This document shows positions 3,525-18,653 of a stretch of DNA of 21,937 bases, one piece after another. Where the stretch lies: positions 1 to 21,937 of IMG/VR virus record IMGVR_UViG_3300047352_000459; one strand, written 5' to 3'. Source of the DNA: a virus. Below the pieces are notes generated by a model, which saw only the letters and a list, made by a program, of their open reading frames with translations, was not told where the DNA came from and searched no databases. The stretch's first letter is position 1; each line of letters opens with the position of its first letter. A program made the translations under genes and the position numbers.

Positions 3525-5306
3525 CTATTTTTCGATGGTATATATTTTAACTGGTTCGGACTTTCCTTTGACCGTAACTTCGTCTAAGAATTTGTAATCA
3601 TATCCGTCTACTAGACTGTACTCAGATATGATTAAGTCCGTGTCATAGTTCTTACAGCTAGACTCTAGTCGAGCAGCAAGGTTGACAGAATCGCCAAGCA
3701 CACTGTAATCGAAGCGAGTACTACTACCAAAGTTCCCCACCACGCATAAGCCTGTATTGATTCCAGCACCTGTATTAATTTGATCAAGGCCTTCCTCTTT
3801 AAGTGTTTCATTTAATTCTCCTAGTGCTAGTCTCATTTCGAGAACAGCCTTTGTAGCGTTGTTAACTTGATCTTCATCATCAAGTGGTGCTCCCCAAAAT
3901 GCCATTATACAATCACCCATATATTTATCGATTGTTCCACCATGTTTGAGAATAATCTCAGTTTGGTTATCAAGGAAGCGATTAATGAGAGCAGTAAGTC
4001 CTTGAGGGTCTTTTTGATATTTTTCTGAAATTGGTGTGAATCCTCTGATATCAGAAAAAAGAAAAGTCATACGTTTGGTCGACCCACCCAATCTCAGTAA
4101 TGTTGGGTCTTTCTGTAATTTTTTGACCAAGGCGGGACTTACGTACGTGCCAAATTGTTGTTTGATTTGAAGTTTCTGACGATACTCGGAAAGGAAACTC
4201 AGGAATGTATGGTATGCCCAAAACAAAACCGAGAGTATTACGATTCCGCTAACGTCAAACAAGTAAGAAGATTCATATAATTTCAGACCTGTGTAAAAAG
4301 AACCGCCAACTATTATTAGCAATGAGGGCAACGAGAACCATACGGATCTTGTTGCAAATGCAAGTAGTAATAAGGCGAGGAGTGTTCCTGCGATTTCTGC
4401 CCCAAGTACCCAAGTAGGTATAGAAGGAGCAGTGCCTGTAATAAGATTATGAAGAATGTTAGCTTGTATTTCATGTGGGTATTTCGCCCCCGCAGGGGTC
4501 GGCACCGGGTTGGTTATACCCTCTGCAGTCGTGCCGAATATAATAAAAGGTGCATCAATTGGATTCTTCATGAACTCTGCACCTGTTTGTTTGTAAAATT
4601 TAGTATTCCAATTTAACCAGATACGTCCATTTGCATCCGTGTTCATAAGTGGGTAACTTGGTACTCTAACCCAAGCTAAACCCTGTTCTTCTGTTTTTAT
4701 TTGGTAGCTTGGGTCTCCTATTGCGACTCTTAAGAGTTCGAGTGCGAAGCTTGGGTAAAGTTTTGACTCTACGTTTACGACTAGGGGAATACGACGTGTG
4801 ACCCCGTCTATTTCCGGCGTAGACGTTACTAGTCCGAGACCTTGAGCTTTTTCTTCGAGTACTGGTGCTGTAGGTAAAATTCCTGGGTATTTGAATAGCC
4901 ATGGTGTTGGGTCTTCTCCTAACTGGGCTGTTCCCACGTGTGGGTTAGTTCCAGTAACTTGTGTCGATGCTGCGCTAGCAAGGACTGTTGGTTTGTACTG
5001 CATTCTCATTGCAAAGTAATCATCATAATCTTTGCCACGTAAGTCTGGATTCGGCATAAGAACCGTAAATCCATTTACAGCATTTGTAGATGTTATTAAG
5101 TCTCCGTAGAGTGATCTAGGAAGAGGCCAACCTCCATAGGTTTTAAGAAGTTCTTCGTCAAGATCTACAATAAGAATGTTTTCATTTTGTACTGGTTCGG
5201 TATTCATAATTAGATAGTCATAACCAATTAGTTCGACTCTTTGCATGATACCAGGATTCCATATAAGGAGTCCCATAAAAATTAGTATTGATATTAATTT
5301 ATTCAT
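3525..5306 (-). CDS. CHASE2-domain class III adenylate cyclase
   Basis: A 593-residue inner-membrane receptor cyclase predicted to make cAMP. After one N-terminal membrane helix (residues ~3-16) comes a CHASE2 sensor (~20-290, periplasmic; note ENILIVDLDEE and GGWPLPRSLYGDL), then about three membrane helices (~300-375) and a C-terminal class III cyclase domain (~400-590). Catalytic residues are present: metal-binding Asp419 (FSDIRGF) and Asp465 (KYMGD), purine-specifying Lys461 with Ser535 in the Thr/Asp position, and transition-state Asn542 and Arg546 (GDSVNLAARLES). ATG at 5306 overlaps the curlin-2 stop as ATGA; an upstream in-frame extension to 5348 is less likely. In bacteria CHASE2-cyclases often neighbour FecR-domain genes, as here. 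A cyclase is very unusual in a phage and would act on host cAMP signalling. Confidence 0.93.
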   Translation of the reverse strand: MNKLISILIFMGLLIWNPGIMQRVELIGYDYLIMNTEPVQNENILIVDLDEELLKTYGGWPLPRSLYGDLITSTNAVNGFTVLMPNPDLRGKDYDDYFAMRMQYKPTVLASAASTQVTGTNPHVGTAQLGEDPTPWLFKYPGILPTAPVLEEKAQGLGLVTSTPEIDGVTRRIPLVVNVESKLYPSFALELLRVAIGDPSYQIKTEEQGLAWVRVPSYPLMNTDANGRIWLNWNTKFYKQTGAEFMKNPIDAPFIIFGTTAEGITNPVPTPAGAKYPHEIQANILHNLITGTAPSIPTWVLGAEIAGTLLALLLLAFATRSVWFSLPSLLIIVGGSFYTGLKLYESSYLFDVSGIVILSVLFWAYHTFLSFLSEYRQKLQIKQQFGTYVSPALVKKLQKDPTLLRLGGSTKRMTFLFSDIRGFTPISEKYQKDPQGLTALINRFLDNQTEIILKHGGTIDKYMGDCIMAFWGAPLDDEDQVNNATKAVLEMRLALGELNETLKEEGLDQINTGAGINTGLCVVGNFGSSTRFDYSVLGDSVNLAARLESSCKNYDTDLIISEYSLVDGYDYKFLDEVTVKGKSEPVKIYTIEK

Positions 5307-6097
5307 TGTTGTGTAATAGATATTGTTTTTGTACAGTCTGCCGTACAATTGAAAGTTGCGGTATATGTTTGATTTGTAGCTCCAAGTTGAGTTACATCTA
5401 CATCATATCCTGTTGTATAGAATTTCATATTTGCTACGTGAGCCCCTGTTCCATATTGTGTTAAGTCTACTTCATTATCAGAGTTGTAAAAGAATATATC
5501 TGCATCCTTATTACCACTACCATACTGAGTAACACTTACCGAGTTATTGTGCGCACCACCATTTCCATAAATATAAGAATTATGTTGGCCAGTCCCATAC
5601 TGATTAACAGTAATATCAGAATCATCACCGAAAAAGAATATTTTGCTATATTTATTGTTTCCTGTTTGAGTAGTTGAATAGACATTGTCGTCTCCTGAGC
5701 CTAGAGCTTCTGCGTGGTTATCATTACCTGTTTGAGTAATAGTTACTGTATTATCATCTTCATCTTGGTCAATGTATGCATAGTTATCATTACCGTCTAT
5801 AGTTACAGTAGAAGAGTTTCCTATATTATTTGACCATACAGTATACATCTTAACTGTATTGCTATTGCCCGTTACAGTACTGTTCCATGTAGCATTTGTG
5901 CAGCTATGGGATGTATAGTTAGCTCCTGTTATAGTTCCGTTTGAGTTTGCACCACAAAGAATATAAGTAGCATTACCATTTCCTATTTGCTTAGTAGTAA
6001 TCTGATTATTCGTTCCTTTTGTAATAATCGTAGTAGAGTTATCCCCAGCAAAGCTAAGGGGACTGATTAATAATAATAACGTTATCGCCCGCACCAT
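5303..6097 (-). CDS. Curlin-like repeat protein 2 (CsgA/CsgB-type amyloid candidate)
   Basis: A 264-residue exported protein. A signal peptide (MVRAITLLLLISPLSFAG) precedes an Asn/Gly/Thr-rich body. At least seven units carry the curlin-type Q-x-G-x-x-N pattern, e.g. ITQTGNDNHAE, TTQTGNNKYSK, VNQYGTGQHNS, VTQYGSGNKDA, LTQYGTGAHVA, VTQLGATNQ, and it ends ISITQQ, like CsgB-family C-termini. Spacing between Q-x-G motifs is longer and less regular than in E. coli curlins. Cysteines occur near the front (LCGAN, HSC) and end (NCTADC), unlike classical curlins. The start overlaps the FecR gene by 44 nt and the stop overlaps the cyclase start. Predicted CsgG substrate; amyloid formation is inferred, not shown. 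Confidence 0.85.
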   Translation of the reverse strand: MVRAITLLLLISPLSFAGDNSTTIITKGTNNQITTKQIGNGNATYILCGANSNGTITGANYTSHSCTNATWNSTVTGNSNTVKMYTVWSNNIGNSSTVTIDGNDNYAYIDQDEDDNTVTITQTGNDNHAEALGSGDDNVYSTTQTGNNKYSKIFFFGDDSDITVNQYGTGQHNSYIYGNGGAHNNSVSVTQYGSGNKDADIFFYNSDNEVDLTQYGTGAHVANMKFYTTGYDVDVTQLGATNQTYTATFNCTADCTKTISITQQ

Positions 6098-7154
6098 TTA
6101 TATTTACCTCCAGTATTACTCCTGCATTGTCTATGTATAGATAAGTACCTGCATTTATATCGATACCTATATCGTAATTGTTTTGTCCTTCGTGTACAAA
6201 GTAAATTAATCCTTCTTCCACAAAAGTGTATGTTTGGTATACAGGATCAAAGCCTGCTATTATACCTTCGAGTTCTACTCCATTTAATTGCGAAGTTTGT
6301 CCTCTTTTCTTGCTTGTAGTTTCTACTAATGCTAATAAATCTACAAGAAACTCTATACTTAGTAAATCAATGTCTAGTCTTGTAACTTCTTCTTGTTCTT
6401 CATCACATTTGTCTACTAAAGCATCACAATCTAAGTCTGGAGCCTCTTCAAAGAAGTCTTTGTCTAAATCTGCAGTAGGCGATGTACCTGCTTGTTGTTC
6501 TTCTACTGCTTCTTCGACTTCTTGAGGTCTTTGAACAATTAACATATTGTCAATCATTCCAAGTGTTATATTTGATAAGGTTACAGCTTGTGTGGGTGGT
6601 TGTTCCCATGCTGAAACCATTGTTGCTTGAAAAGCTTCATTGAGTATTTCTACTCCTGCTGCAGTAGTTACTGTTATCTCTCCTGATGAATCACCATTCT
6701 CATCTGGTAGTAGTATAACTAAACTTCTGCCTAATTCGTCCACAGTTGTTGTAAAATCTGTGCCACGAATACCGATAGTTGCTGTTGGAGTATTGATTGT
6801 TATATTCTGTTTGTCAATTTTTCCAAAAGCTCCCGAAATAAATCGAGCTGTTCCAGAAGCCATGTTAAGAGCCATCTTACTCTTACTTGGGTCTGGGTCA
6901 AAGATATATTCATCAATGACTAGTTTTGAATGTTCTGTTAATTTAACTACGGAATCATCTAGAAACTGTATCGCGAGTCTTCCGTTTCCTGTTCTTACAT
7001 CATCGAATGAGAAGATATCTGAATCTATTTCAGCAGTAAAAGAGTCAGTAGAGTTTACTCTAGTGATTTCTCCATTACCTCGTAATTCAGATATCTCTCC
7101 GATTTCTGTCGTAAAGACTGGAATACTCAATAGTATTAGCAGCCAGACGCGCAT
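6054..7154 (-). CDS. Exported FecR-domain protein
   Basis: A 366-residue protein with a signal peptide (MRVWLLILLSIPVFT). The FecR domain spans ~50-135: VRTGNGRLAIQFLDDSVVKL, a KMALNMASGTARFISGAF core and NTPTATIGIRGTDF, the signature of periplasmic FecR domains outside the iron-sigma system. An acidic linker follows (~205-250, VEEAVEEQQ, EEAPDLDCD), then a beta-rich C-terminus ending NGAGDNVIIINQ, which resembles half a curlin unit. There is no adjacent FecI sigma factor or TonB receptor, so iron signalling is unlikely. Neighbours suggest a periplasmic scaffold or a partner of the CHASE2 sensor. It overlaps curlin 1 by 19 nt and curlin 2 by 44 nt. Confidence 0.9.
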   Translation of the reverse strand: MRVWLLILLSIPVFTTEIGEISELRGNGEITRVNSTDSFTAEIDSDIFSFDDVRTGNGRLAIQFLDDSVVKLTEHSKLVIDEYIFDPDPSKSKMALNMASGTARFISGAFGKIDKQNITINTPTATIGIRGTDFTTTVDELGRSLVILLPDENGDSSGEITVTTAAGVEILNEAFQATMVSAWEQPPTQAVTLSNITLGMIDNMLIVQRPQEVEEAVEEQQAGTSPTADLDKDFFEEAPDLDCDALVDKCDEEQEEVTRLDIDLLSIEFLVDLLALVETTSKKRGQTSQLNGVELEGIIAGFDPVYQTYTFVEEGLIYFVHEGQNNYDIGIDINAGTYLYIDNAGVILEVNINGAGDNVIIINQSP

Positions 7155-7813
7155 TGGTCTACATTAATAGTACCGTTTGATGTAGTAGATACTATATTAG
7201 CAACGTTTGTACTTGCAGTATCAGTTTGGTCAATAGTTACAGTATTAGAACTTCCAGTCAAAGTAGCTGTGATCTGATGATCAGCAGAACCTGTCTGAGT
7301 AGTAGTAATATTGTTACTATTTCCACTAATAGTCCAATTATTTATACAACCCACAACTTCACAAGTACCTGTTATGGCATTTGAAGTTCCTGTTATGGTA
7401 AAGTCAGTGTTGGCTCCAGTAGCTGTTGCTGCAGCACCTTGAGTCCAAGTAAGACTGTTACTGTCTCCAATTGTAATATAATCAAAGTCAGAACTAGCAA
7501 TGTCGCCTGTAGCTCCACCTGCTAAAGTAGCAGTGTTACTGTCCCCTGTGACTTTATAAGTCCAACTAGATGAGTTGCCTTGAAGTAATGAAGCCAGGAA
7601 GGTGTTAGTATCACCAATCTGGTCTATATCTACTGTCATTGAAGTACCTGACAAAGTAAATCTATTGTCGGTTTTACCAACTGTGTTAGTAGCACCTATT
7701 TGATCAATAGTAAGTGTAAGTCCTGTACCTGTTTGAGTAATATATAAATCATTATTACCCGCAAACGCTGTAAGAGATAGACATATCGCGAATAGTCCAA
7801 TTATCTTATTCAT
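7136..7813 (-). CDS. Curlin-like repeat protein 1
   Basis: A 225-residue exported protein with signal peptide MNKIIGLFAICLSLTAFA. The mature part is rich in Thr, Asn, Gly and Ser and carries curlin-like units: ITQTGTGLTLT, IDQIGATNTVG, IDQIGDTNTFL, TTTQTGSADHQ, TGSSNTVTIDQTD, plus degenerate TGDSNTATL and IGDSNSLTWTQ. It starts directly after CsgG (8-nt overlap) with a GGGAG ribosome site. The protein ends DQCASGC, and a CEVVGC pair lies in the middle; cysteines are unexpected in a curlin. It is the first substrate candidate after the pore gene, so possibly the nucleator or major fibre. Alternative: a beta-helical adhesin exported through CsgG. Confidence 0.85.
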   Translation of the reverse strand: MNKIIGLFAICLSLTAFAGNNDLYITQTGTGLTLTIDQIGATNTVGKTDNRFTLSGTSMTVDIDQIGDTNTFLASLLQGNSSSWTYKVTGDSNTATLAGGATGDIASSDFDYITIGDSNSLTWTQGAAATATGANTDFTITGTSNAITGTCEVVGCINNWTISGNSNNITTTQTGSADHQITATLTGSSNTVTIDQTDTASTNVANIVSTTSNGTINVDQCASGC

Positions 7814-8702
7814 TGTTTTCTCCCAGATTTGGGTAATTAAAATCCCAAACCTCTTTTTCGAGTCCCTGCATAACTAAACCATATACAGCCGCTTCAATAG
7901 CAGCTCTTACAGCTTGGCTAACAGCCTCGTTCTCTGTACTACCACTTTCGATTTCCACGAGTTCTGTACCAAGTTCTATGAATCTAAACACATCCCCGCC
8001 ACCTCCAGTAGATAGTATAGTTTTTGTGGTTGTAACATTTAACAAAACTTCGCCTGTTTGAACTAATACAGCCCTTAATGTTACTGTAACGACATCTTCA
8101 CGATATTGATTCTTCATACCGATACCTAAGTATCGAGCACCGTTACCACCAGTTCTTACGTTAGTATCATAACTAACGATACCACCCTCTATAATCATTC
8201 CTGCATATAGTAGTGGTTTTAAAATTGTTTTTCCATCCGCCCCTTTGTTGTAAGCCTCAAAAGTACTTCTTACAAGTTGTCTTTCTTTTGTCAAAGCATC
8301 AAGTCCAGTTCTCTCTACAACTACAAACCAATTTCCTTTGCCAGCGTCTCTCAAAGCTTCAATCAGAATATGATGCGCTCCTTGTGTTACTGCAGTAGAA
8401 AAATCAGCAATACCCTCTCTGGCTTTTCTCTGACCTGTGTTATCCCCAAAGTTGTATACTGCTACAACTGTCTTTTGGTTTGGGTAGGGTAGATTAAGTA
8501 ATTGTTGGGTAGCACTAGGTTGTATGACAGGGCCTGTTCTACATACCATTCTATCTGTACCTGCTTTTGCAATTCCTGTTACAACGTCTTTATTAAATCC
8601 TTCTTCAAATCTATAACAGTTATCATATTGTTGTGGTGCGCCAAATGAAGCACATCCCACGAGTAGTAAAGGAACTAATACTTTAGCCAGACGCGCAGTC
8701 AC
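7806..8702 (-). CDS. csgG: CsgG, outer-membrane curli export lipoprotein
   Basis: A 298-residue homologue of the nonameric outer-membrane channel that secretes curli subunits. I chose GTG at 8702: GGAGG lies 8 nt upstream and it gives a lipoprotein signal TARLAKVLVPLLLVGC with lipobox LVGC and lipidated Cys17. A frame opening at ATG 8726 would overlap csgF further. Conserved blocks match E. coli CsgG: VVAVYNFGDNTGQRK, DFSTAVTQGA, NWFVVVERTGLDAL, GGNGARYLGIG, LVQTGEVLLNVTTTKTILS, VFRFIELG. In the constriction loop the Phe56 equivalent is kept (DFSTAV), but by my hand alignment Asn55 is Asp and Tyr51 is replaced, probably by Glu. Its start overlaps csgF by 20 nt. Confidence 0.95.
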   Translation of the reverse strand: MTARLAKVLVPLLLVGCASFGAPQQYDNCYRFEEGFNKDVVTGIAKAGTDRMVCRTGPVIQPSATQQLLNLPYPNQKTVVAVYNFGDNTGQRKAREGIADFSTAVTQGAHHILIEALRDAGKGNWFVVVERTGLDALTKERQLVRSTFEAYNKGADGKTILKPLLYAGMIIEGGIVSYDTNVRTGGNGARYLGIGMKNQYREDVVTVTLRAVLVQTGEVLLNVTTTKTILSTGGGGDVFRFIELGTELVEIESGSTENEAVSQAVRAAIEAAVYGLVMQGLEKEVWDFNYPNLGENNE

Positions 8703-9219
8703 TAAAACATCCTCCGAAGCTTCCAACTGGTATTTCGATAGTTGTTGTAGATATCAACACTCCATCTAACCATTCTTCAACCACTAGAGTGATAGAGACT
8801 CCATTGTTTGTCCAAATTATTCTATTTCCTTCTAACCAAATTTCTCCAGTTACAGGATCCTCTAATGTGCCAGGATTGTTATAATCAAAAAGTGATTCTG
8901 ATATATCCTTTGCAAGTGTAGAATAGATTCTTGATTCTAAGTTTCTCAAAAATTTAGCAAGAGTAGTATTGTCTGCTTCTCTTTGAGCGTCTTCTAAAGC
9001 GTCCTGTGCTTTTTGAGCAAGGGCGTCTTTTCTTGTTCTTTCTTGTTCGTCAATTGTTAAATAGTGTGCGGATTGATTAATCCCACTAAAACTTGGGTTG
9101 CCAAACTTATGTACAAGTTCTGCGGCGCTTAGTTCTGATATAAACAGTACGCCCATAAATACAAATATAGTACCGAGTACTGCATTTGAAACTCTATTAT
9201 TTACCTTTTCTTCTTTCAT
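8683..9219 (-). CDS. csgF: CsgF-like curli assembly factor
   Basis: A 178-residue exported protein with a signal peptide ending near SELSAA (residue ~33). The mature N-terminus ELVHKFGNPSFSGINQSAHY parallels E. coli CsgF (FQFRNPNFGGN...), the peptide that inserts into the CsgG pore and forms a second constriction. A charged helix (~55-100, EQERTRKDALAQKAQDALED) and a C-terminal beta region follow. The tail GGCFSDCASG contains two cysteines and is encoded over the ribosome site and start of csgG. In E. coli CsgF links the nucleator CsgB to the pore. The order csgF-csgG is the reverse of the E. coli csgDEFG tail only in being contiguous without csgE, which I do not find. Confidence 0.92.
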   Translation of the reverse strand: MKEEKVNNRVSNAVLGTIFVFMGVLFISELSAAELVHKFGNPSFSGINQSAHYLTIDEQERTRKDALAQKAQDALEDAQREADNTTLAKFLRNLESRIYSTLAKDISESLFDYNNPGTLEDPVTGEIWLEGNRIIWTNNGVSITLVVEEWLDGVLISTTTIEIPVGSFGGCFSDCASG

Positions 9220-13413: not shown

Positions 13414-14231
13414 TGACACCTTTTAAAAGAAAAGATAAATTAACAATTTGCGTTGTTGATACTGAAACAACAATGATGAATGAATATTCACATCAAGTTT
13501 TTGATTTTGCTTATGTAATAGGAAATGTTTTAGATTCAAATTGTGAGCCACTAGAACGAAGCTTTTTAATTGATGAAGTTTTAGACGAGCCAAAGAATTT
13601 TATTTGGACTACTCCGAAAGGAATGCCCGAAGGAGAGAGAAAAGCTTTTGCATTAGATAGCCGATACGAAACATCTTTAAAAAGGAGAACAAAAACAAAA
13701 AAAGGCGTTTCATGGGAATTTGCATTGGACTATTTTTATAAAGATTGTTCAAGAATGGGCGTTGATATTTTTACTGCTTATAATGTTAAATTTGACATTG
13801 AAGCACTAAGAAAAACACAAGACCAAATAAACGATAAAAGGTTTAGAATGCCAAATGGCATGAACATAATGTGCCTTATGGATATTGCTCAAACAAAGGT
13901 TATTAACAACGATTTTCATAATTGGTTTAAAAAGCAAGATAAATATTTGCAAAATCAATTTACAACTGATAATGATAATATTTCTTATTCGGCTGAATGT
14001 GTTTTTAGATATTGGTTTGATAACTATTATTATAAAGAACAGCATACAGCGTTGAGAGATGCGAGAATGGAATGGAAACTAGCTGTAAAAATGTTTGAAA
14101 GGTGGGAAGGAGAAATTAAAAGAGATTTTATAAATTTCGTTGTGAATCTCGGTTGGCAATCTGTTAATAAAATTCCATCATCAACTAAGAAAGCAAAAAT
14201 GAGAAAAGAAAAGAGGAACTTAATAGCATGA
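13413..14231 (+). CDS. DnaQ-like DEDDh 3'-5' exonuclease
   Basis: A 272-residue nuclease of the RNase H-like DEDD class. Exo I is VVDTETT (Asp16, Glu18), Exo II TAYNVKFDIEAL (Asp128 with the Asn before it), Exo III HTALRDARME (His211, Asp216), the DEDDh form found in DnaQ/epsilon and RNase T. The domain has an insertion at ~85-105 and a lysine-rich C-terminal tail (STKKAKMRKEKRN). It probably degrades or proofreads DNA or RNA during phage takeover. It is coupled to the upstream 49-aa gene (TAATG) and overlaps the HAD gene by 4 nt (ATGA). The cassette is more AT-rich than the rest. Confidence 0.92.
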   Translation: MTPFKRKDKLTICVVDTETTMMNEYSHQVFDFAYVIGNVLDSNCEPLERSFLIDEVLDEPKNFIWTTPKGMPEGERKAFALDSRYETSLKRRTKTKKGVSWEFALDYFYKDCSRMGVDIFTAYNVKFDIEALRKTQDQINDKRFRMPNGMNIMCLMDIAQTKVINNDFHNWFKKQDKYLQNQFTTDNDNISYSAECVFRYWFDNYYYKEQHTALRDARMEWKLAVKMFERWEGEIKRDFINFVVNLGWQSVNKIPSSTKKAKMRKEKRNLIA

Positions 14232-14734
14232 AAAAAGAAAAATTACTAAAGGTTATTTCAAATAAATATTTAATTCCGAAGGTAGCAAAAAGCTTTGATA
14301 TGAAAATTATCAAAGCTTTTGATTTTGATGATACTTTGTTTACTGCAATCGGAACTTATGAGCAAGATTATAATTTAGAAAAATTTAAAAAAGATAATAC
14401 CTTTTTTAAAAATCTATTTACAAAAGAATTGCCATTGGCAAAGAAATTGAGACAAGCAAAAAAGAAAGGAGATATAATTGTTATCATTACAGCTAGAGAA
14501 CAAAAATGGTGGTTTCCATTTCTATTATGGCTCAAAAGAATTCCTTATGATTATGTTAGGCAAAGACCAAAGACAAGGCAAAGAATAACAACTCACGAAT
14601 TAAAGAAAGAGCAATTAATAGATATTGTTTCCAAACATGGCTCATCTTACTATTTAGATTTTTATGATGATTCTAAAATTAATTGTGATACGATTGAGCA
14701 AGGCATAAAATTTGCAACTGTTCACAAAATTTGA
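14228..14734 (+). CDS. HAD-superfamily phosphatase
   Basis: A 168-residue protein with HAD motif I FDFDDTLF (nucleophile Asp32, Asp34), motif II VIITARE (Thr, ~residue 90) and motif IV LDFYDDSK (~150). The cap is minimal, as in polynucleotide 3'-phosphatase or 5'(3')-deoxyribonucleotidase-like members, so a DNA/RNA end or a nucleotide is the likely substrate. It is paired with the DEDDh exonuclease through an ATGA overlap, supporting a nucleic-acid end-processing or nucleotide-salvage role. The first ~25 residues before motif I are extra; a later start (M25) is possible but has no better ribosome site. Confidence 0.85.
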   Translation: MKKEKLLKVISNKYLIPKVAKSFDMKIIKAFDFDDTLFTAIGTYEQDYNLEKFKKDNTFFKNLFTKELPLAKKLRQAKKKGDIIVIITAREQKWWFPFLLWLKRIPYDYVRQRPKTRQRITTHELKKEQLIDIVSKHGSSYYLDFYDDSKINCDTIEQGIKFATVHKI

Positions 14735-15389: not shown

Positions 15390-15418
15390 TTGACAGACAT
15401 AACCATAACCCCTATAAT
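15390..15418 (+). promoter_or_regulatory. Perfect sigma70 promoter of the 300-nt RNA
   Basis: TTGACA (15390-15395), 17-bp spacer, TATAAT (15413-15418). Followed by TTATATCTTTTGAGGGAAA (15421-15439), which recurs 18/19 at 16932-16950 behind the promoter of the tRNA-like RNA. Confidence 0.88.
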
Positions 15419-15424
15419 GGTTAT

Positions 15425-15725
15425 ATCTTTTGAGGGAAAACAACCGCAAAGGGAAGGAACGGAAAACGGCACAACTTGACAGGGCAACCTTTCAGACCGA
15501 GCCACAGACCAACGCCTGAACTTTCAACATACTTGAAGATGCTAAGAATAGAACCGACTTTGTCGCCCTTTTCAAAGCACTTCGAGGACTCCCCCAAGAG
15601 ATAGCCGAGAGGTGGACTCATACAGAGAGATTATATCAAACTGATTGCTGGACACCTCGAAGCGACTCGGAGAGGATTAATTTTAACTTATTGGTAAAAT
15701 TTTGCAATCCTCTCCACCTTTTTTT
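15425..15725 (+). ncRNA. Putative structured ncRNA, about 300 nt
   Basis: The stretch between a perfect promoter and a strong intrinsic terminator has no ribosome site or credible ORF and is richer in GC than nearby genes. It can form GTCG/CGAC-type and longer stems, e.g. CTTCGAGG (15580-15587) with CCTCGAAG (15655-15662) closing a ~67-nt domain, and CGAC-TTT-GTCG (15554-15564). It does not match RNase P, 6S, SRP or tmRNA signatures I know. It shares its first ~19 nt with the 16.9-kb RNA. The function is unknown. A plus frame interrupted by one TGA runs through the terminator and is not accepted as a gene. Confidence 0.6.
15669..15725 (+). terminator. Intrinsic terminator of the 300-nt RNA
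   Basis: GGAGAGGATT (15669-15678) pairs with AATCCTCTCC (15706-15715); inside, AATTTTA pairs with TAAAATT. A T7 tract follows (15719-15725). Confidence 0.85.
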
Positions 15726-15772
15726 CGTCAATTAATTTTGAGGGGTCGCCCCTGCCTGACTGTTTTATATGA

Positions 15773-15936
15773 GGGTCGGCGCGCTCTGCGCCGCAGTGCC
15801 AAAACTCAGTGCAAAAACTAATCACGCGTGCGCCAATAGTGCAGTACCTAAACTCGGTAAAGTCTACCCGGGTGTAAGCGACCCAGGCGGGTTCTGTACC
15901 CAGGTCTATTATAACACGAATTTTCCCGCTTGTCAA
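15773..15936. repeat. Diverged ~165-bp repeat, copy 1, with a leftward promoter
   Basis: It begins GGGTCGGC, then has GC-rich hairpin GCGCTCTGCGC and motifs of the form yAGTGynAAAACTnA at 15794, 15807 and 15837. Copy 2 at 16391 has the same order and nearly the same spacing (13 and 31 bp). It ends with a minus-strand promoter: TTGACA (15936-15931), 17-bp spacer, TATAAT (15913-15908), which would transcribe the repeat leftward. No credible gene is present in 15726-16059. Confidence 0.6.
15908..15936 (-). promoter_or_regulatory. Perfect leftward sigma70 promoter in repeat copy 1
   Basis: Minus strand TTGACA, 17-bp spacer, TATAAT. The leftward product (from ~15901) would cross the repeat and could end near GGGG-CGA-CCCC at ~15741-15752. 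No ORF with a ribosome site follows, so a small antisense or regulatory RNA is likely. Confidence 0.7.
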
Positions 15937-15964
15937 GACAAATTTTCAAAAACTTTTAAAAAAC

Positions 15965-15973
15965 TTATCCACA
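15965..15973 (+). promoter_or_regulatory. DnaA box
   Basis: TTATCCACA is an exact match to the strongest E. coli DnaA box. It follows an A/T-rich stretch and is followed by a second weaker ATTTCCACA. It lies between the two ~165-bp repeats, suggesting an origin, but a single site can occur by chance. Confidence 0.45.
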
Positions 15974-16004
15974 GGATTTCCACAGAAAAAACACAAGATA
16001 TTCC

Positions 16005-16899: not shown

Positions 16900-16928
16900 T
16901 TGACAACTCCTTAATGGCTCTGTATAAT
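16900..16928 (+). promoter_or_regulatory. Perfect sigma70 promoter of the tRNA-like RNA
   Basis: TTGACA (16900-16905), 17-bp spacer, TATAAT (16923-16928), followed by the 5' leader shared with the 15.4-kb RNA (16932-16950). Confidence 0.88.
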
Positions 16929-16934
16929 ATATTA

Positions 16935-17089
16935 TATCTTTTGAAGGAAATGAAGATACTTTGAGCAGGGTAGCTCGTGGCAGAGAAGTGACTACGGAAG
17001 CACGCTCGTTATGGAGAAGTAGCAGGTTCAACTCCTGCCTCTGCCAGTAAAGGTCAGTACGAATCTGACACCTTGCTCAAAGTATTTTC
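16935..17089 (+). ncRNA. RNA with a tRNA-like fold inside a 20-bp helix
   Basis: The ends pair over 20 bp: 16952-16971 (GAAGATACTTTGAGCAGGGT) with 17070-17089, two G-U pairs. Inside are a tRNA-like element (16979-17046) and a hairpin GTCAG/CTGAC (17053-17069), a three-way junction. The tRNA-like part has a perfect 7-bp acceptor (GGCAGAG/CTCTGCC), a perfect T-arm GCAGG-TTCAACT-CCTGC, and a short D-arm GTG/CAC whose loop contains GG, as needed for the elbow contact. The anticodon arm is too short (CTC-GTTATG-GAG) with no U33 position, and no CCA is encoded, so it is unlikely to decode. No ORF. Possible tRNA mimic for host tRNA enzymes, or a processing or stability element. Confidence 0.7.
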
Positions 17090-17184: not shown

Positions 17185-17496
17185 ATGGCACAAGTAAATT
17201 ATTCAGAAAAAGATGTTAGCATGATGGTAGAAACCTACACTGCTAATCCAACTAGAGACACAGTAGAAGCTCTAGCAGAAAAGTTAGGCAAAAACACAAG
17301 AAGTGTAATAGCTAAACTTTCAAGAGAAGGTGTCTACAAATCTCAGCCGAGAGTAACAAAAGCAGGAGAGCCTGTAGTACTCAAGGGCGAGTTCGTAGAG
17401 AGAATTGAAGCAGTATTAGGTTTCAGTATACCTTCTATCAGCAAAGCAACGAAAGCAGACCTTTCAAAGTTAGCTGACCACCTAGAAGCACAGTAA
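17185..17496 (+). CDS. KLSREGVY-family probable DNA-binding protein, copy 1
   Basis: ATG 17185 has AGGAGG 6 nt upstream. An in-frame leaderless start at 17137 would add a basic amphipathic head (MMIKILKKLFGTKEET). The product MAQVNYSEKDVSMMVETYTA, then TVEALAEKLGKNTRSVIAKL, SREGVY..., reads as a helix-turn-helix (TVEALAEKLGKNTRSVIAKLS) followed by a short C-terminal helical domain. It is paralogous to the protein at 21562 (ETVNMLAEDLDKSVKSIIGK, LSREGVYKK). The family is frequent in marine phages as I recall; a transcriptional or replication role is inferred. A hairpin (17485-17505) overlaps its stop. Confidence 0.8.
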   Translation: MAQVNYSEKDVSMMVETYTANPTRDTVEALAEKLGKNTRSVIAKLSREGVYKSQPRVTKAGEPVVLKGEFVERIEAVLGFSIPSISKATKADLSKLADHLEAQ

Positions 17497-17546: not shown

Positions 17547-17575
17547 TTGACAAATGGTTAAAAGCCGTGTATAAT
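17547..17575 (+). promoter_or_regulatory. Perfect sigma70 promoter of the giant RNA
   Basis: TTGACA (17547-17552), 17-bp spacer, TATAAT (17570-17575), predicted start ~17582. Confidence 0.88.
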
Positions 17576-17581
17576 ATATCT

Positions 17582-18604
17582 TATAAAATATAAAAAAGAA
17601 TAGAGAACAACGGCAGAGTTGCAAAGGAAAAAATAAATGTTTGAGCTTCGGCCAAAAAATAATCCTAACTCATGCCGACTCAAGGAGCCTACTGCCATAA
17701 GTGTAGGAAGTCAGGCATGACATTAAAGATAGCCGTATGCTCTTCGGTGCTTGGAGAACTCGTTAAGGAACAAGTACACGATTTTTTGATAGTCATATGC
17801 AGACATATTTTGCGGAAATAAAAGTGAGTGCATATCTGATTAGCTTGTCAGTAAATGAGTGGAGCGTTAGCCTTATCGGTAATCCCTACCATCGCGTGTA
17901 GGTCGTAAGCAGAGTAGGACACGCCCCTTGAGCACTTTGTCGAAAGTATAAAACCGATTTGTTTTACTGTATTTCTGGGCGTTACGAGCTTCGGCTTTAA
18001 AAATACAGAGGTGATTGACGCAAGATGCACCACAACATCATGTAGAGTGAGGAAACCACGCTGACACTCTTGATAACAAACCGATTTGCTCGGTAGCAAC
18101 AAGAGGAAACGAGAAGGAAACCAGTCTACTGCGACACGGGCGGACTAGATATTTATATCATAGCAACCAGTCAATAGTAGCAAAGTCTTGGGGCGATTCA
18201 GTTTTAACTGTCAAACCAAGCATAGGGCAAGGAGTTAGAATATAGAGAACTCCACCGCTTATCTGCGAGGATATCCCACGCTTGCTTAGGCAAGAGAGTA
18301 GGGTAAGAGGGGCAGAAAGCACTGATATAATAATGACAAACTGCAGACTTGGAACAGTATAAAAGCTAAGCATTAAGTAGAACGGCAGTCGCTCTGTCAA
18401 CCACTGAATAGCGGATAACTTAATATAGTAGATAAGTGATGCGAAATGAGCAGTATACCATAGACGCAAGTCGTAGATTGAAGTTCGTAATATCCATCAC
18501 CGCTAGCTACACCCTGTGATAGGTGCAAGATAAGATGCCGACTTGCCACAGTATAATAAAATAAACGCGTTTTAATGGGCAGTAGCAATACTGCCTATTT
18601 TTTT
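17582..18604 (+). ncRNA. Giant structured ncRNA, about 1.02 kb (GOLLD/ROOL-like candidate)
   Basis: Over 1 kb between a perfect promoter and a strong terminator has no plus-strand ORF of 60 codons and no ribosome site. It is full of hairpins: 17670-17720 (TCATGCC/GGCATGA, GACT/AGTC, CCTAC/GTAGG), 17894-17924 (GCGTGT/ACACGC), 17967-18008 (CTGTATTT/AAATACAG enclosing an AGC-TTCG-GCT tetraloop), ~18066-18102 (CTCTTG/CAAGAG enclosing ACCGA/TCGGT), GGAGTT/AACTCC near 18230-18257 and CTTGC-TTAG-GCAAG near 18279-18292. Size, position in an early region and a tRNA-like neighbour recall GOLLD and ROOL, the giant ornate RNAs of phages and prophages often found beside tRNAs. I cannot confirm a family match; a new class is equally possible. 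Confidence 0.75.
18576..18604 (+). terminator. Intrinsic terminator of the giant RNA
   Basis: GGCAGTA (18578-18584), loop GCAA, TACTGCC (18589-18595), extended by G-T and T-A pairs, then a T7 tract (18598-18604). Confidence 0.88.
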
Positions 18605-18653
18605 ATCTTCCAAACCTTCACATCAAAATTTTAAGGCTAACTTAAAATAGTTC

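Follow-up and report, generated by a model that had tools for sequence, protein, structure and literature searches.

What is the tRNA-like element lying at positions 16952-17089 (+ strand) of this viral DNA: a tRNA gene, the remains of one, or an RNA of another kind, and what could it do for the phage that carries it? The window, i.e. the whole stretch of DNA analysed, corresponds to positions 1 to 21,937 of a 21.9-kb IMG/VR virus record (IMGVR_UViG_3300047352_000459). An earlier note had described in it a perfect acceptor stem and T-arm and a GG-containing D-loop, enclosed by a 20-bp outer helix and accompanied by a second hairpin; sequence and fold reproduced each of these features exactly.

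In the predicted fold, the outer helix is formed by 16952-16971 (5' strand) and 17070-17089 (3' strand), paired over 20 bp, and the tRNA-like part lies inside this closing helix. The acceptor-like stem, GGCAGAG (16979-16985) with CTCTGCC (17039-17045), is supported by the fold, by the Rfam tRNA model and by covariation at 7/7 pairs. Within it are found the D-arm GTGACTACGGAAGCAC (16988-17003), which is near-invariant in the 28 family members and whose loop contains GG in the window; a mini anticodon hairpin, CTC-GTTATG-GAG (17005-17016, 3 bp and a 6-nt loop), with covariation of its stem; the variable loop AAGTA (17017-17021), of which GTA could pair with the D-loop TAC in a tentative pseudoknot lacking covariation support; and the T-arm GCAGG-TTCAACT-CCTGC (17022-17038), recovered by the fold, the Rfam tRNA model and covariation in the family alignment. 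The second hairpin, GTCAG-TACGAAT-CTGAC (17053-17069), has a T-loop-like loop. All these features are on the + strand. The MFE of the element is -59.6 kcal/mol versus -39.6 +/- 4.3 kcal/mol for dinucleotide shuffles (z -4.6, 0/200).

A tRNA anticodon arm has a stem of 5 bp and a loop of 7 nt. The claim that the arm of the element is too short to decode holds, since in the window it consists of a stem of 3 bp and a loop of 6 nt, and the canonical arm was found in none of the 28 members, the largest arms having 6 bp and 9 nt (L162, L166, L172) or a long split stem (L156). The CCA tail is, as had been noted, not encoded (downstream of the acceptor the sequence reads A GTA), whereas ordinary tRNAs in the same phage group encode a terminal CCA. 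The element thus resembles a canonical tRNA (RF00005) by its acceptor, its D-arm with GG, its T-arm and a variable loop of normal size, and differs from it by the mini anticodon hairpin, the missing CCA and an acceptor closed by more helix. In the fold of the window element the 20-bp helix leaves no free acceptor end, which rules out charging and CCA addition as long as the transcript is unprocessed. ARAGORN, a check proposed in the earlier note, called no tRNA at the element in the window, nor in any family member tested, and a default Rfam scan of the window did not match the element as a tRNA. Under permissive filters the Rfam tRNA model gave 31.5 bits, barely above the 29-bit cut-off, and no Rfam tRNA match was obtained in six other carrier loci. 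A minus-strand Rfam match at the element (Plastid-ycf2) was discarded as the antisense of the tRNA-like part. No ordinary tRNA genes were found in eight carrier records of 40-105 kb, so the element is not a component of a tRNA supplement there.

The covariance search for homologues suggested in the note was productive, leading to a family with 28 distinct members from phage contigs of IMG/VR. The first homologue (L006/L033) was reached via the neighbouring gene, and its acceptor is GACAGAG/CTCTGTC instead of GGCAGAG/CTCTGCC, a compensatory change. A pattern search with the 16-base D-arm revealed a divergent group with an entirely different outer helix and an identical plan. A covariance model built from six sequences (R1), searched over loci containing the neighbouring gene, gave >30 matches at E 2e-8 or better, to which an additional pattern scan added more; sequences outside this first model scored as high as 109.6 bits (E 1e-25). 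With a core covariance model of the family (R2), members scored 61-92 bits, and the top real tRNA tested, T5 tRNA-Ala, 40 bits. The element occurs as one copy in the long carrier records searched. We are nearly certain that the structured RNA family is real, and it is apparently new to the literature, no earlier description being found in the open-licence literature subset.

Several candidates were examined and rejected. Where the pattern but no model gave a hit (L128, L129, L133 and others), the sequences were considered as chance matches or tRNAs. Three pattern matches came from GTDB bacterial genomes: one (L186, 38 bits with R2) resembles a tRNA and has an anticodon arm of full length, and the other two had no R2 score. 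Weak R1 hits at L082 (811-935), L084 (3338-3462), L065 (822-943) and L066 (2713-2834) occupy the element locus and consist of long helices around an insert that is not tRNA-like; they were not retained as members. In L009, the corresponding slot contains a short RNA-like stretch with a terminal helix and no tRNA-like part. As regards cultured phages, a search of 50,697 phage records for relatives gave no match to the 9.9-kb right half of the window (near mode), to an L037-type neighbour protein (tblastn) or to the L102 element (blastn).

Covariation was analysed on 19 representative cores. In these, 93.5% of cells were paired, compared with 35-51% when the partners were slid, and 89 double-change cells were counted versus 24.8 +/- 3.8 in shuffles. 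Covarying pairs were found in the acceptor (7/7), the mini anticodon stem (3/3) and the T-stem (3/5), the mini anticodon stem by itself providing 13 double-change cells compared with 2.2 in shuffles. Relatives have thus kept the acceptor pairing. Its loss, or a homologue with a normal 5-bp anticodon stem, would have spoken against the earlier note, and neither was seen. The D-stem and D-loop show almost no variation (GTG[A/T]CTACGGAAGCA[C/T]), and for this reason covariation is unable to test the D-stem, the D-loop and the elbow; the pairing between D-loop and variable loop is possible in 96.5% of cases and is devoid of covariation.

Across all aligned members, the GG of the D-loop and the majority of the T-loop residues do not vary, and the predicted elbow residues (D-loop GG, T-loop TTCRANY) are present in all of them. 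The acceptor itself is more variable in shape: it is longer and bulged in the L034 group, and merged with the outer helix as one stem in L115. The L034 group retains the outer helix despite its different sequence, and L036 differs from L034 by compensatory changes both in this helix and in the acceptor extension. A helix encloses the tRNA-like part in every member, the automatic count including neighbouring sequence for L115, L170, L175, L132 and L156, and only some members have a second hairpin. Judged from the aligned sequences, the elbow residues are fixed and the anticodon cap and the helix are free in sequence and length.

The synteny of the locus is conserved. A small DNA-binding-like protein gene (17185-17496, +; phrog_323 'D5-like', weak IF2_N-like match) follows the element in the window, and a D5-like gene adjoins the element in 27/27 assessable members. 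In 25 of these the distance from the gene to the downstream D-arm is 52-258 nt, with gene and element on the same strand and the next promoter farther on; in the two others (window and L033) the element is upstream of the gene and has its own promoter. Phages without the element have only a short hairpin at the corresponding spot, so the element is an optional module within a conserved locus. The arrangement of DnaQ-like phrog_20187, HAD/polynucleotide-kinase-like phrog_415, D5-like gene, element and MazG around the element is found again in L144, and L037 shares the first part of this layout. The phrog_415 protein (14228-14734, +, in the window) is conserved near the element and may have an RNA-end repair function. 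A T-run directly follows the helix in some members (L119/L178, L124/L156), and a real tRNA-Glu(TTC) lies within about a dozen bases 3' of the element in L134, L140, L160, L180, L181, L094 and L096. On the other side of the D5-like gene, the window contains an ORF-poor conserved region (17576-18650, +) preceded by a perfect promoter (17547-17575); its conserved blocks, some of >90% identity, extend across many related phages, and 17547-18650 (+) is probably a giant non-coding RNA. In nearly all carriers this region comes after the element. No Rfam match, GOLLD and ROOL included, was obtained for it in the window up to E 5. Elsewhere in the window, the minus strand of 3525-9219 carries genes that by eye look curli-like (curlin-repeat-like proteins, a CsgG-like protein) together with FecR-like and CHASE2/adenylate-cyclase-like proteins, and a phage terminase small subunit is present on the record.

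The note had attributed to the element a dedicated perfect promoter. A sigma-70 promoter with a 12/12 match (TTGACA-17-TATAAT) is indeed located at 16900-16928 (+), with transcription expected to start near 16935, so this part stands for the window; as a distinctive trait of the element it does not, perfect promoters being frequent in the window (four within 1.1 kb) and an own promoter being found only in the window and in L006/L033. Another promoter-led stretch (15390-16000, +), with a transcript start expected near ATATCTTTTGA, like that of the element, has parts conserved in L006, L005, L099 and L137.

As to function, we tentatively favour, at somewhat below an even chance with the mechanism included, a stand-alone, non-decoding mimic of the tRNA elbow that acts in trans as a decoy or a scaffold. 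We infer that the element is expressed and that its transcript would fold into a tRNA-like cap, with the D-loop GG docked on the T-loop and the acceptor and T stems stacked. This cap would sit on a long helix made of the paired 5' and 3' ends, hence the lack of a free acceptor end, and the anticodon hairpin would serve merely as a cap. The elbow would be presented in trans to a protein partner recognising tRNA via its D-arm and T-arm, and the bound protein would be either occupied (decoy) or tethered (scaffold). The combination of a fixed elbow, a free cap and helix, and no free acceptor end favours such a trans-acting mimic, and the unusual constancy of the D-arm suggests that recognition there is sequence-specific. 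The position of the element, 3' of the D5-like gene in 25 members and 5' of it in 2, also favours a role in trans over a fixed 3'-UTR role; as a counterpoint, most members lie close 3' of the gene, where a role in cis is possible.

The main rival, which we consider rather unlikely, is such a role in cis, at the 3' end of the mRNA: the element, situated past the D5-like gene and ahead of the next unit, would protect the mRNA 3' end, be a site of RNase III or RNase P cutting, or insulate the giant-RNA promoter. The position of the element in the 25 same-strand members, with the D-arm 52-258 nt past the gene and ahead of the next promoter, and the T-runs right behind the helix in the members cited above agree with this, but in the window and in L033 the element precedes the gene with its own promoter, relatives without it have just a short hairpin in the same place, no terminator-like site scores within the window stretch, and in a protective hairpin a fixed 16-nt D-arm and T-loop would be superfluous. 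The partnership with the giant RNA proposed in the note, comparable to that of tRNAs beside ROOL and GOLLD in phages, is possible by position, and we consider it improbable. The giant-RNA region was found by blastn in 25/29 carrier loci, window excluded, and ROOL and GOLLD giant RNAs often lie near tRNA islands, GOLLD linkers possibly holding tRNAs (PMC12286853); however, the element is missing from many phages that have the giant RNA (L008, L009, L010, L018, L065, L078), a gene and a promoter lie between both in the window, and Rfam recognises neither GOLLD nor ROOL here.

The decoy for RNase P, CCA-adding enzyme or anticodon nucleases that the note had envisaged is a doubtful candidate of low probability. 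The elements of the window and L033 do have a proper 7-bp acceptor, a T-arm and, at both junctions, unpaired nucleotides that RNase P could engage, but among relatives no acceptor end is preserved as such (longer and bulged in the L034 group, fused in L115), so that a decoy for RNase P or CCA enzyme is unsupported, and a freely varying anticodon hairpin fits poorly with an anticodon-nuclease decoy. That the element might be a decaying tRNA gene, as its tRNA-like arms and the Rfam tRNA score could suggest, is refuted by covariation and keeps hardly any probability: across highly divergent members, three helices show compensatory changes and the D-arm hardly varies.

Among known systems, the bacterial Y RNA YrlA (RF02553) shares the overall plan, which in YrlA consists of a stem of the 5' and 3' ends and a tRNA-like domain comprising D, T and acceptor arms, for 90-150 nt in total (PMC8394870); the element likewise has a long terminal stem, D and T arms, no decoding capacity and a size of about 90-150 nt. 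The tRNA-like domain of YrlA has been suggested to inhibit an anticodon nuclease competitively (PMC7790460). At the biochemical level, YrlA is characterised by binding of Rsr and as a substrate of DusA and TruB. A phage Y RNA, whose long stem would bind Ro60/Rsr and whose tRNA-like domain would bind an effector, is nonetheless very improbable here. In YrlA, as read from the Rfam model on L187 (a weak match below the curated cut-off), the order is T-arm, closed hairpin and D-arm within the long stem, i.e. circularly permuted, whereas the element keeps the tRNA order (acceptor, D, anticodon, T, acceptor) and its long stem extends the acceptor. RF02553 matched neither the window nor six other carrier loci, and the Ro60/TROVE domain (PF05731) was found in 0/15 records (11 carriers, including those of 79.8 and 88.2 kb; positive control detected), records that are possibly fragments. 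Membership in YrlA was therefore rejected on the grounds of Rfam, of Ro60 in the records searched and of topology.

The phage tRNAs accompanying ROOL and GOLLD offer a parallel in layout only, that of a tRNA-like unit adjoining a large conserved phage RNA; the element differs in being non-decoding, and the giant RNA here is outside the Rfam families. The species 1 and 2 RNAs of T4 (rnaC, rnaD) are also small, stable phage RNAs, adjoining tRNA genes; in their stretch R1 had no match and the R2 matches were tRNA genes. Against T5 RNA1, RNA2 and RNA3 the family models reached at most 15.5 bits (R2 on RNA2), less than on real tRNAs, so that no convincing homology (R1, R2) links the family to these RNAs or to T4 species 1/2. 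The element adds to these systems a covariation-backed family of tRNA mimics from uncultured large phages, with a topology unlike that of YrlA and an adjoining conserved giant RNA. More speculatively, and with less confidence than we place in the elbow mimic itself, it could represent a new class of phage RNA: a tRNA converted into an elbow module that does not decode and is carried by a long helix, the reverse of the YrlA architecture, and that captures or redirects a host tRNA-binding protein during infection, or a tRNA-targeting defence. The nearest annotated precedents are T5 RNA1 and RNA2 (AY543070), annotated as 'tRNA-like stable RNA with unknown functions', which like the element are stand-alone RNAs of a tailed phage, and which differ from it by other predicted folds and by their site inside a tRNA cluster. 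The identity of the partner would reveal how a phage benefits from an elbow without a message, a question that the element shares with the tRNA-like stable RNAs of T5.
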